From Nereocystis luetkeana (Eukaryota; Sar; Phaeophyceae; Laminariales; Laminariaceae): DNA of 64,000 nt. Positions 4,915-49,100 of the stretch are shown here, one piece after another (the stretch's first letter is position 1; each line of letters begins with the position of its first letter). Both the position numbers and the translations under genes were made by a program. The notes under the pieces are model-generated. The model saw only the letters and a list, made by a program, of their open reading frames with translations. It searched no databases and was not told where the DNA came from. Where the stretch lies: the NCBI GenBank assembly GCA_031213475.1, contig JARUPZ010000004.1, positions 2,381,501 to 2,445,500 of the forward strand, given 5' to 3'.

Positions 4915-5250
4915 GTGTGTTCTTCACATGAAACCGTTCTTTCTACCCGTCGACATCCAGCACAACCAGTGTCCGTGCCGATTCTTCAATCAATCCTAGA
5001 AGATATACAAGTTCTGTGGTCACAAAGCTACCTGGTACGCCACAGAGATACTACGCTGCCACGTATGCAGTAAGCACAGCAGTGGGCAATGAAATGCCAT
5101 GCCATCATACTATTAATAGATCCGACAGGCACGACACACACATTCTATGAAATAGAGAAACGAAAGGAAACAATAAACAATCAAAGAGAAAACAAAAACA
5201 AAGAGGACACAAATCGAAAGAGAAAAAGAAAAAAATGAAGGAAAAAAAAA
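4915..5250 (+). repeat. Dispersed repeat R2 (CCGTCGACATCCAGCACA family), copy 1
   Basis: Homologous over about 300 bp to 11,050-11,350. Shared marks are TTCTTCACAT, ACCGTTCTTTCTACCCGTCG, CATCCAGCACAACCAGTGTC, GTTCTGTGGTCACAAAGCTA and a purine-rich AAAGAGAAAACAAAAAC end. At 5029-5037 this copy reads TACCTGGTA where copy 2 has a plain TA, so it carries a 7-bp micro-insertion. Confidence 0.75.
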
Positions 5251-5479
5251 AACACAATAATACAGGAAAACGCACTACTTTCGACAATATTTTCAGGCGT
5301 TTCCGCCTGAAGAACGGGGGTTTTCGTAGCGTCCCCGGGATTTGGCCGTCACGGCTGTCTGTCAAAACATTTTTCTTAACGGTGTCTGTCAAGGGGTAAA
5401 AGTGCTGTCTGCCGACATCTTTGCTTGATGGAAGCGTTTACCTTCCTGTGATCAAGGTATACATAGATAGACAGACGGA

Positions 5480-46100: not shown

Positions 46101-49100
46101 TCAAACCGGTTTAAGTATATGTCGTTCATTTTACCTGTCTTCAGTGTACTTTTTTCGTCAATTTTTGCGACTCACTTTTTTTCTTCCCCCCCCCCCCCCC
46201 CCCCCCTCCCAGTTTATTATCTCCACACTTCTTTTCTCTCTCCCTCCTGTTTATACTAGTAACTCAGATCCGGGGTCACATATTACCCCTCCCCCGCTAT
46301 GCCACTATTACGGGGGGCCATAGTTAATAGGACCTATGGTATACATAAAAGCCTATGTATTGAACCATTTTTACTGACAATATTTGGTCCTGTTAACTAT
46401 GGCCCCCCGTAATAGTATAGTAACGCTTCACATTGTCGGACACGAAACATATCAACAATATCACGGGGGACCCTAGTTAATAGGACCTATGGTATACACA
46501 AAAACCTACATATTTACCTATTTTTACGAACAATATTTGGTCCTATTTACTATGGTCCCCCGCAATAACGTTGATGGCAATTTCGTCGATCGCATAATAT
46601 AATTTCCGTCGGTAGGGGAAAACCCGTCGGCAACTACTGTAGGTACGAAAACATGTTCTCCTACACAGGGCTGCGAGAGAGGCGTGTCTATACTTGGTTG
46701 ATTTCGTTGGGCAGCGAAGATGGGCCGACTATAACGGGGGGCCATAGTTAATAGGACCAAATATTGTTAGTAAAATGGTTAAATATGTAGGCTTTTATGT
46801 ATACCGTAGGTCCTATTAACTATGGTCCCCCGTAATAGTAAAAACGGTGAAATATATACTGGTAGGTTTTTATGTATACTATAGGTCCTATTAACTATGA
46901 CCCCCCGTAAGAATTGATCTACAGCGGTTTCATCCACATCAAGCAGACACGATGACGAGCGAGACCCAAACGTGCCAAAATGTCAAGACACACAGGCGCG
47001 AAATCTCCCGTCAACTACCTCACGCACTTAATTTTATGGCACTTAGCCAACTATTCTCAAGGATTAACTAGTCGGCGGCTTATTACAATGCTCAGCCAGC
47101 GCGAAGCCCTGATAAATTCCGTCATTATATATGGGTATAGTCTAGGGAGGGCAGGAGGGAGTCAGTTGTAACTCCATCGGTAGCAATGAAAAACATACCA
47201 GGTACCTTCCCCCCCTTTTTCGAGCAGGGGCGGGGGGGGGGGGGCAGGCGTAGAACTTCCGCCCAAAATTGACTCTTCGTGGACTACTCACGCTGCCCGG
47301 GTTCATTTCTTGACCCCTTTTGGGAAGAGCGACGAGAAAGTATGCGGGGCGTACGGAATCTCCGTAAAAAATCGGCGTTCACGCGGACTTCTGCAGAGTT
47401 TCGCATCTTAACTCCGTCGGGAAAATGCGACGAAACATCGTGACGATTTTTTTTACTGAATCTCCGCCGAATTGGCCTCACGTGGACTACGTTGATACTT
47501 ACGTATGACACCGATGTAGGTGTAGATGAAGCAGAGGTTCGTGGTGAGAAGCGGTCTGTGTATGATCGCCAAAGCAGCGATATTGATCTGTCTCGAGTGT
47601 GCGCAGCGTTTTTAGCAGGGATTAGACTTCGGAGGAAGAAATCTAGGTATTGAGACGTGCCTTGTCTGAACCGCTGTCCGCGGTGTGCCTGTCATGGTAT
47701 ACAAGACCACATATTGTCTGTAAAAATAGGTAAATACATACCTGGTAGGTTTTAGTGTGTACCGTCAGTCCTGTTCACTATGGCCCCCCGAAATAGGGCT
47801 GGGCACTGGCACGCTATGTACTGGCAGTAGTAATAATCTACTGGCAGTAATAATCTACTGTTTGACCTGGCCAGTATGTTCGCCAATACTTTTTATCCTA
47901 CGTACGCCCAAGAAGCACGCCATATTTGTAGCACTGAAACCCACAAACTGCAGTTCGAGAGGAGAGGGGGGAGGCAGTATACTGCTGATGTCCAGTATAC
48001 TGATTGATTTCGACGACAGTATAATCGATATCAGCACGAACACCGCTATTGCGGGGGGCCATAGTTAATAGGACCACATATTGTTAGTAAAAATGGTCAA
48101 ATATGTAGTTTTTTATGTATATCAGGGGTCCTATTAACTATGGTCCTCCGCAATAGTGCCCAGCCCTGCATTCCACTGAAGTGGTGGCATGCCCTGTCTG
48201 ATCTGCCTCATACGTCCGGTGCGTATGATCTATGTGTTCACTCTGATCTACATGAGCTGTCTGATCTGTCTGATCTGCCTGATATATATTTTCAACAGGA
48301 ATCGACCTCGGAGGACGTGAACTTCTACTACGCCATGACCATGTGGGCCATCGCCACCGGCAACGCCGAGCTGGAGGGGCTGGGCCGGCTGCAGACGGGG
48401 GTGGTCACGCGGTCCATCAAGGAGTACTTCCTCCTCAAGGACAGCAACACCAACCACACCCCCGACTTCGTGCGGAACAAGGTCAGTCCCGGTTCCTGTC
48501 CTGCCCTGCCCTGTCCTGTCCTGCCCTGTGCTGTGTCGTCTGTCTCATGCGCCGTCCTGCCCTGCCCCGCCATGTCCTGTCCTCTCCTGTGCTGTCCTCT
48601 CGGTTGCTTAAATTCACTCTGGAATCTACGAAGTACCAGGTACAACCGGAAGCATTAATAGCACACGCGCGATCAACGTATTGCACCAAGCTTGCAAAAT
48701 ACTGGCTTTAGCTTTTGAGACGGGTCATCTACATAACATGTACAGATCATATACAAATCATTCCCACAGTTCATGATCTAGATCTTGCACGGCAGATAGA
48801 CACTCTTGTTTCGCGATCTTGTACGATCTACATAGCTAACGTTGCCGGGCAAGACTCGTACAAATCCGCACGATCTAGCACACGACCCCTGGGTTAGATA
48901 TACACCGTACTACACAGATCCTGCACAATCTCTCACAGCGGCAGGCGAGGAACTAGATCGTCTATCTGTGGATCGACATTCAGATAGATAGATCATGATC
49001 TGTCCCAGCCGAGGTTTACCCGTTTTTTTGCTTTCCCCAAAATAGTACACCTCTGAATACCCGATGCATTAATATCAACCTGACCTGAAAAAACGAATTC

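Follow-up and report, generated by a model that had tools for sequence, protein, structure and literature searches.

TACCWGGTA units in the Nereocystis luetkeana genome are 7-bp insertions at TA and probably footprints of transposon excision

Why does the nonamer TACCWGGTA (W, A or T) recur so often in a 64-kb stretch of the genome of the brown alga Nereocystis luetkeana (GCA_031213475.1, contig JARUPZ010000004.1, positions 2,381,501 to 2,445,500; hereafter the window)? A sequence-only reading had counted roughly 40 copies in the window, where chance predicts less than one, and had interpreted them as insertions at TA dinucleotides left by a transposon that is itself out of sight. In this study, we followed up that proposal in the window, in blocks from other contigs and across the whole genome. 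In three repeat families of the window, comparison of copies showed 7 bp, CCWGG plus TA, inserted where other copies have a plain TA. We consider it likely that this insertion is the excision footprint of a TA-duplicating, Tc1/mariner-like cut-and-paste transposon with a 5-nt self-pairing stagger, and for brevity we call the units scars.

We counted exact matches in the window and in 100 shuffled versions of it. The window held 45 units (24 with T and 21 with A at the centre) against a shuffle mean of 0.48 and maximum of 3, which bears out the earlier estimate. The units form 38 runs, of which 32 are single, 5 double and 1 triple, and some lie beyond the range first described, at 3582-4909 and 48634-63883. 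The count was then run genome-wide, as the sequence-only reading had suggested: the 465-Mb assembly (1,987 contigs) contained 182,395 TACCWGGTA against 1,744 matches to the reversed control pattern. This is a roughly hundredfold excess, on average one unit per 2.5 kb, and the insertion model, which the earlier reading had tied to genome-wide enrichment, therefore holds on this point. Density is higher in the window (0.70 per kb) than the genome mean (0.39 per kb), and three blocks from other contigs, picked by round coordinates and blind to content, held 25 units (100 kb), 63 units (100 kb) and 17 units (50 kb), indicating that density varies across the genome. Window and blocks together make up 314 kb; several of the counts below use 264 kb and others 314 kb, as given with each.

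The insertion itself was read from repeat copies with and without the unit. Family M is a repeat of roughly 110 bp that resembles a miniature inverted-repeat transposable element (MITE) and forms 28 clusters in the window. Its scars at 28585 (plain ACTATGG in other copies), 37469, 37513, 40970, 41279 and 47739 all have empty counterparts, and those at 7961 (a truncated copy) and 35342 (the copy edge) were read by eye in the alignment, the other copies having plain TA; odd forms at 40494 and 46857 also lie inside family M copies. All coordinates of the sequence-only reading proved correct, including the triple at 7961-7983, the double at 28585-28600 and the five single scars from 37469 to 47739 just named. 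In repeat R2, the insert at 5029 aligns with the plain TA of the copy at 11088-11240, as had been noted for position 11,164. The TA that holds TACCTGGTA at 5029 is occupied in a third R2 copy (6351-6456) by another 7-bp sequence, TACTACGTA at 6370; this is either a different insert into the same target or an imprecise scar. The repeat around 35649 has three insert-free copies, at 8693-8785, 36402-36512 and 45309-45408, and the insertion point reads TA in two of them and CA in the other. We also joined the flanks of each run at TA and compared them with the remaining window. At the threshold used, 26 of the 38 runs had no repeat copy spanning the junction, so within the window most runs offered no empty site for comparison, and the spanning alignments of 4901, 25334, 40191 and 52535 are AT or tandem-repeat matches that carry no weight.

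We then searched self-alignments of 264 kb, unguided, for gaps of 3-20 bp. The results showed 54 position classes of TA-bounded inserts, a minority of small gaps beside 450 further gap positions of these lengths that were not TA-bounded. CCWGG was the core in 9 of the 54 classes (eight distinct sites, 37469 being counted twice), including sites at C1 5269, C2 13261 and C2 61615 in blocks from other contigs. The odd forms CCCTGG and CTGG accounted for two further classes, and the 3-nt Sleeping Beauty (SB) form, as CAG and CTG, for another two. The remaining 41 were a mixture of altered simple repeats, local duplications and, at five sites, TTAATA. What stands out among the small gaps is the recurrence of one core, CCWGG. 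The flanks are as specific: identical dinucleotides on both sides of CCWGG were TA in 150 cases in 314 kb and AC, the next, in 7, and only TA was enriched. Among TA-N-TA forms with a self-complementary core (264 kb; leaving out simple repeats and a handful of forms with about ten occurrences each), TACCAGGTA ranked top with 133 occurrences (39.6-fold), followed by TAGGACCTA (24; 20-fold), which is internal to family M, and TATTAATA (70; 10.8-fold over expectation). Empty repeat copies and the unguided search thus both support the insertion at TA that had been claimed, and a TA-bounded insert facing a plain TA in empty copies is the form of a Tc1/mariner footprint.

The centre of the unit was also informative. 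Single scars had T in 65 and A in 60 cases, the equal shares that the proposed A/T ambiguity calls for, and 125 of 137 runs consisted of one unit. In the 12 multiple runs, 7 of 13 adjacencies between neighbouring units were mixed for A and T, in agreement with the earlier view that tandem copies are independent repeat visits to a regenerated TA. Because the centres are A or T equally, and mixed even between tandem neighbours, slippage is not the source of the scars. A short tandem heptamer, (TACCWGG)n, spread by slippage in the manner of bacterial heptamer arrays is accordingly strongly disfavoured, and we give it almost no credence. Such arrays do exist: a prokaryote scan that required three head-to-tail units in a row, with single units out of its scope, returned 40 stretches, a good part of them flanked by more heptamer variants. 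However, 35 of those 40 bacterial runs were uniform by reading, whereas the units described here are overwhelmingly single, differ between neighbours and are insertions at dispersed TAs with a target motif.

That motif was derived from 274 half-sites around scar TAs in 314 kb. The results showed a shared palindrome, WA..AYR-TA-YRT..TW, in which positions -7, -6, -3, -2 and -1 are W, A, A, Y and R and the opposite side is the mirror image; its information is confined to -8 to -1, with almost none beyond. In the unfiltered sets, 87% of half-sites had R at -1 (background 61%) and 4% had T there (19%); W stood at -7 in 78% (51%), and 18% of half-sites read AYATA (5%). Trained on the 38 runs of the window, a matrix told 99 runs on three other contigs apart from 12,414 further TAs at an area under the curve (AUC) of 0.843. 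With simple-repeat sites removed from both sites and background, which removed the bias of a version that filtered the background alone, training on 27 runs gave an AUC of 0.832 on 79 runs. The palindromic, AT-rich preference around TA typical of Tc1/mariner elements was thus recovered on new sites (AUC 0.83-0.84), which supports a Tc1/mariner-like target motif. A palindromic ATATATAT target is reported for the transposon ZB, similar to those of SB and Bari, in passages of PMC7913693; the scar motif is similar to it and not identical (R at -1, W at -7), and the SB target described there is likewise palindromic and AT-rich.

Scars also decay. One-mismatch forms numbered 36 in the window against about 15 expected, and 22 of 34 changes outside the centre were transitions; in 314 kb the figure was 65 of 125, a weaker excess over one third because that count takes in chance matches. 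This decay looks like ordinary substitution, and on a rough estimate the scars would have diverged by a few per cent per site and be younger than the family M copies, which match one another at roughly 72-93%. These observations bear on the idea that TACCWGGTA is a functional palindromic motif, for example one bound by a protein, which selection maintains or spreads. Palindromy and abundance would suit such a motif, but the unit is found as an insert inside MITE copies, units share TAs in tandem, substitutions accumulate with a transition excess and the flanks bear an insertion-target motif. We regard selection for a binding site as highly improbable.

An excision footprint would arise as follows. 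A donor with ends CCAGG...CCTGG would join an AT-rich palindromic target at TA. When the element departed, the non-transferred strand would be cut 5 nt inside each end, leaving on both flanks a 5-nt overhang that reads CCAGG inward. These overhangs could pair at four positions (C-G, C-G, G-C, G-C) and would mismatch at the centre. The mismatch would be settled by repair as A or T, giving TA-CC(A/T)GG-TA, and the regenerated TA would be open to re-entry and hence to tandem scars. We infer this origin from scar anatomy, the target motif and the parallel with family M set out below; the donor, its ends, its transposase and the stagger length are the parts of the model that we infer along with it.

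The same footprint could in principle follow from the usual 3-nt stagger, with CCA overhangs meeting in a one-base A/A overlap and the gaps filled to TACC(A/T)GGTA. Mos1-type mariners have the end CCAGGT.... Overhangs of 3 nt are normal for the superfamily, for which PMC3878927 states 2 or 3. However, CCA overhangs cannot pair with one another, and heterogeneous products would therefore be expected, whereas the scars are strikingly uniform: in 264 kb there were 133 exact sites against 7 with one extra C or G and 8 TACCWWGGTA, and the fill-in form of a 5-nt overhang, TACCWGGCCWGGTA, was absent. The exception to this uniformity is the one-base-short forms, which number 40 in 264 kb and are near chance in the window (8 against 6.2), where one of them (46857) is a true insert. 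Annealing of 5-nt overhangs would explain the uniformity, and we consider the 3-nt version unlikely. The slightly odd forms mentioned by the sequence-only reading were located as TACCCTGGTA at 40494 and TACTGGTA at 46857, in line with a few imprecise variants.

Family M provided an internal control. It starts TA|TTACGGGG and ends CCCCGTAA|TA, and TATTAATA, which consists of TA + TT + AA + TA, shares the terminal TT/AA of the family. In 314 kb, C precedes TA at 91 of 158 TATTAATA flanks and at 29 of 41 family M ends, compared with 20% for TAs overall. Compared with empty copies, TTAATA is inserted at C-TA-G in five places (window 5111; C2 14956, 40312, 52159 and 61174), although the near-identical flanks of 40312 and 61174 may reflect one event copied. 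TATTAATA is the scar that would be expected if 2-nt ends were filled in and joined, and from these sequence matches it is probably family M's own excision scar. Because it matches the family M ends and target, the genome appears to log, in the same way, the excisions of a TA element that is visible. The two scar classes share a TA target and, as modelled, construction from the terminal bases of the element; that of family M differs in having 4 nt (TT+AA, both overhangs kept), a C-TA-G target and a visible element.

Several results weigh against an excision origin. We listed inverted-repeat pairs at TA in the window and, in the window plus the three blocks, pairs starting CC with a spacing of at most 6 kb; in these 314 kb (less than 0.1% of the genome) none was recognised as an element bounded by TA-CCWGG with matching inverted repeats, so the earlier remark that no CCAGG...CCTGG element is visible in the window applies to the blocks as well. 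DDE_3 is one of the Tc1/mariner-type catalytic models, and a genome-wide search with it, which could miss an intron-split or decayed gene, gave no match at E <= 0.001 (30 candidates scored; control positive in 3 of 14 genomes). Transposase_1 had no match in the genome either, its control being silent everywhere. Re-hits at scar TAs numbered 13 against 1.3 expected by uniform TA hitting, a roughly tenfold excess that needs an extra cause, so either a scar TA is a favoured target or tandem elements existed. In the window without MITE-borne and ATATAT sites, the AYATA half-site gave a weak signal (5 of 46 half-sites, background 3.5%, p=0.02), and W at -7 held (38 of 46). Finally, a 5-nt footprint falls outside the 2-4 bp given for Tc1/mariner elements in PMC7913693, a usual range and not a strict definition; with overhangs of 2 or 3 stated in PMC3878927, 5 nt would be a new variant. 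The excision proposal of the sequence-only reading is thus partly supported: TA insertion, A/T centre, re-visits and imprecise variants are borne out, as is a Tc1/mariner-like target motif, whereas neither a CCAGG...CCTGG donor in 314 kb nor a DDE_3 match in the genome was found.

Individual donor candidates were examined and rejected. The pair at 34498-34810 (20-nt arms, 90%) is more readily explained by two double scars that have decayed within GTATC-rich DNA, and the ends of the pair at C2 14668-15268 have no relatives in the blocks. At C2 60556-62002, the pair (TACCAGGCGG...) is embedded in a larger inverted duplication with roughly 2 kb per arm, and because the similarity continues outward beyond the pair (55/60 outside, 57/60 inside), it is not an element end. 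The duplication, at about C2 58860-63700, has arms 86% identical and carries R2 copies and a scar. When 338 kb were scanned for Tc1/mariner catalytic motifs, the sole match covered six residues and was unconvincing.

The donor may be extinct in this genome, may belong to another or an unrecognised transposase family, or may not have existed. In the last case the main rival is an unknown TA-acting enzyme that adds 7 bp with no transposon intermediate, as a micro-element or end-joining product. The negative donor search in the sequence examined and the lack of a DDE_3 match count in favour of such an addition, as does the enrichment of re-entry at scar TAs. On the other side, the target motif and A/T ambiguity are products of transposase integration and overhang repair, and family M, a MITE that is visible in this genome, appears to have a scar class of its own; we hold direct addition to be very unlikely. 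Returning to excision, we tentatively propose, with slightly less than even confidence, an unrecognised TA-targeting transposase, unmatched by DDE_3 and cutting with a 5-nt self-pairing stagger, whose departures are recorded at the 182,395 sites and whose scars outnumber any copies that survive.

We compared the scars with known systems. The footprint of Sleeping Beauty and Frog Prince is listed as C(A/T)GTA in a table of PMC3878927; TA kept on both sides, self-complementary outer bases and an A/T centre are common to both, whereas the scars have 5 nt instead of 3 between the TAs, an unseen donor and very large numbers. With Tc1/mariner elements generally they share a footprint and a TA duplication after excision, and they differ in a length beyond the stated range and in the DDE_3 result. 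Bacterial TACCWGG arrays have the same 7-bp unit but are mostly homogeneous and head-to-tail, not dispersed singles. Runs of three to five TACCWGG were seen in records labelled Acidimicrobiia, Gemmatimonadetes, Deltaproteobacteria, Chitinophaga, Planctomycetes and others, with several per genome in some. In viral contigs, a pattern of two and a half units gave 3 stretches, taken for chance, with no further copies. Family M patterns were absent from the viral and prokaryote collections, and a phage search for similar DNA found none. Open papers containing the 9-mer were, judged by their titles, unrelated to transposons, and the literature search found none joining a 5-bp footprint with mariner, or mariner, footprint and excision with brown algae.

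The scars of the window, given unstranded and as exact TACCWGGTA matches unless stated otherwise, are distributed as follows. Single TACCAGGTA units lie at 3582..3590, 4901..4909, 5776..5784, 9339..9347, 27233..27241, 27585..27593, 35342..35350 (terminal TA of a family M MITE, by-eye alignment reading), 35649..35657 (third repeat family), 35802..35810 (followed by a decayed unit), 40191..40199 (adjoining a 15-bp tandem array), 40813..40821, 40970..40978 (family M), 41279..41287 (family M, with 5 more extra AT-repeat bases alongside), 47196..47204, 48634..48642 and 52535..52543. Single TACCTGGTA units lie at 5029..5037 (R2), 6237..6245, 12507..12515, 16013..16021, 16096..16104, 23442..23450, 23465..23473, 35487..35495, 37469..37477 (family M), 47739..47747 (family M), 49682..49690 and 63875..63883, and the family M copy holding 37469 has a second scar at 37513..37521. 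Three units in a GTATC-rich stretch are less certain: TACCTGGTA at 35088..35096 and TACCAGGTA at 35124..35132 and 35268..35276. Double scars occupy 12743..12758 (T,T), 16496..16511 (A,T), 19255..19270 (T,T), 25334..25349 (T,A) and, in family M, 28585..28600 (A,T), and the triple scar (T,T,T) at 7961..7983 occupies a CCATA|GGTCC site of a truncated family M copy, by the same by-eye reading. The imprecise family M forms span 40494..40503 and 46857..46864, and a probable decayed scar, TACAAGGTA, lies in a family M copy at 29917..29925.

Other small TA-bounded forms were counted too. The Minos-like TACGAGTA/TACTCGTA occurred 54 times in 264 kb and were about 4-fold enriched in the window, and the Sleeping-Beauty-like TACWGTA occurred 77 times in 264 kb (2.1-fold), 7 of the 25 in the window lying in one tandem array at 38094-38236. 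One case was clear: TACAGTA at 37793-37799, in a family M copy (cluster 37778-38002), is inserted where other copies have plain TA. Since this is a Sleeping-Beauty/Tc1-like 3-nt footprint, another TA element may have been active; beyond this insert we make no claim for either form. A CTGTA insert at C1 56233 resembles it. The window also has a palindromic element at 34909-35015, bounded on each side by TTAA (TTAACCCTTTTAG...CTAAAAGGGTTAA), which may be a MITE of piggyBac type.

The window also carries, on the + strand, exons for the C-terminal domain of a GH81 beta-1,3-glucanase at about 44754-44882, 45640-45741 and 48293-48487, with a weak match to the GH81 N-terminal domain at 38592-38750 (17.2 bits against a curated cut-off of 25.6). 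Because the exons spread over 44.75-48.49 kb and the weak N-terminal match lies at about 38.6 kb, the gene has multi-kb introns; several scars lie within its introns. Taken by themselves, the size and composition of the genome and the GH81 gene would suggest a brown alga, perhaps a kelp. Relatives of the GH81 exons were absent from viral contigs, and the window gave no tRNA and no Rfam match at the gathering threshold.

Transposon excision usually leaves little trace. Here each departure was apparently stamped with a self-identifying 7-bp mark, so that one could read directly from the genome how many excisions took place, where, under what target rule and how long ago, although the element itself is unseen. 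If this is true, the excision stagger range of TA transposons would be extended to 5 nt, and the CCWGG and TTAA scars of one genome would form a two-class record for dating transposon activity, which would also measure repair choice, for example between annealing and fill-in.

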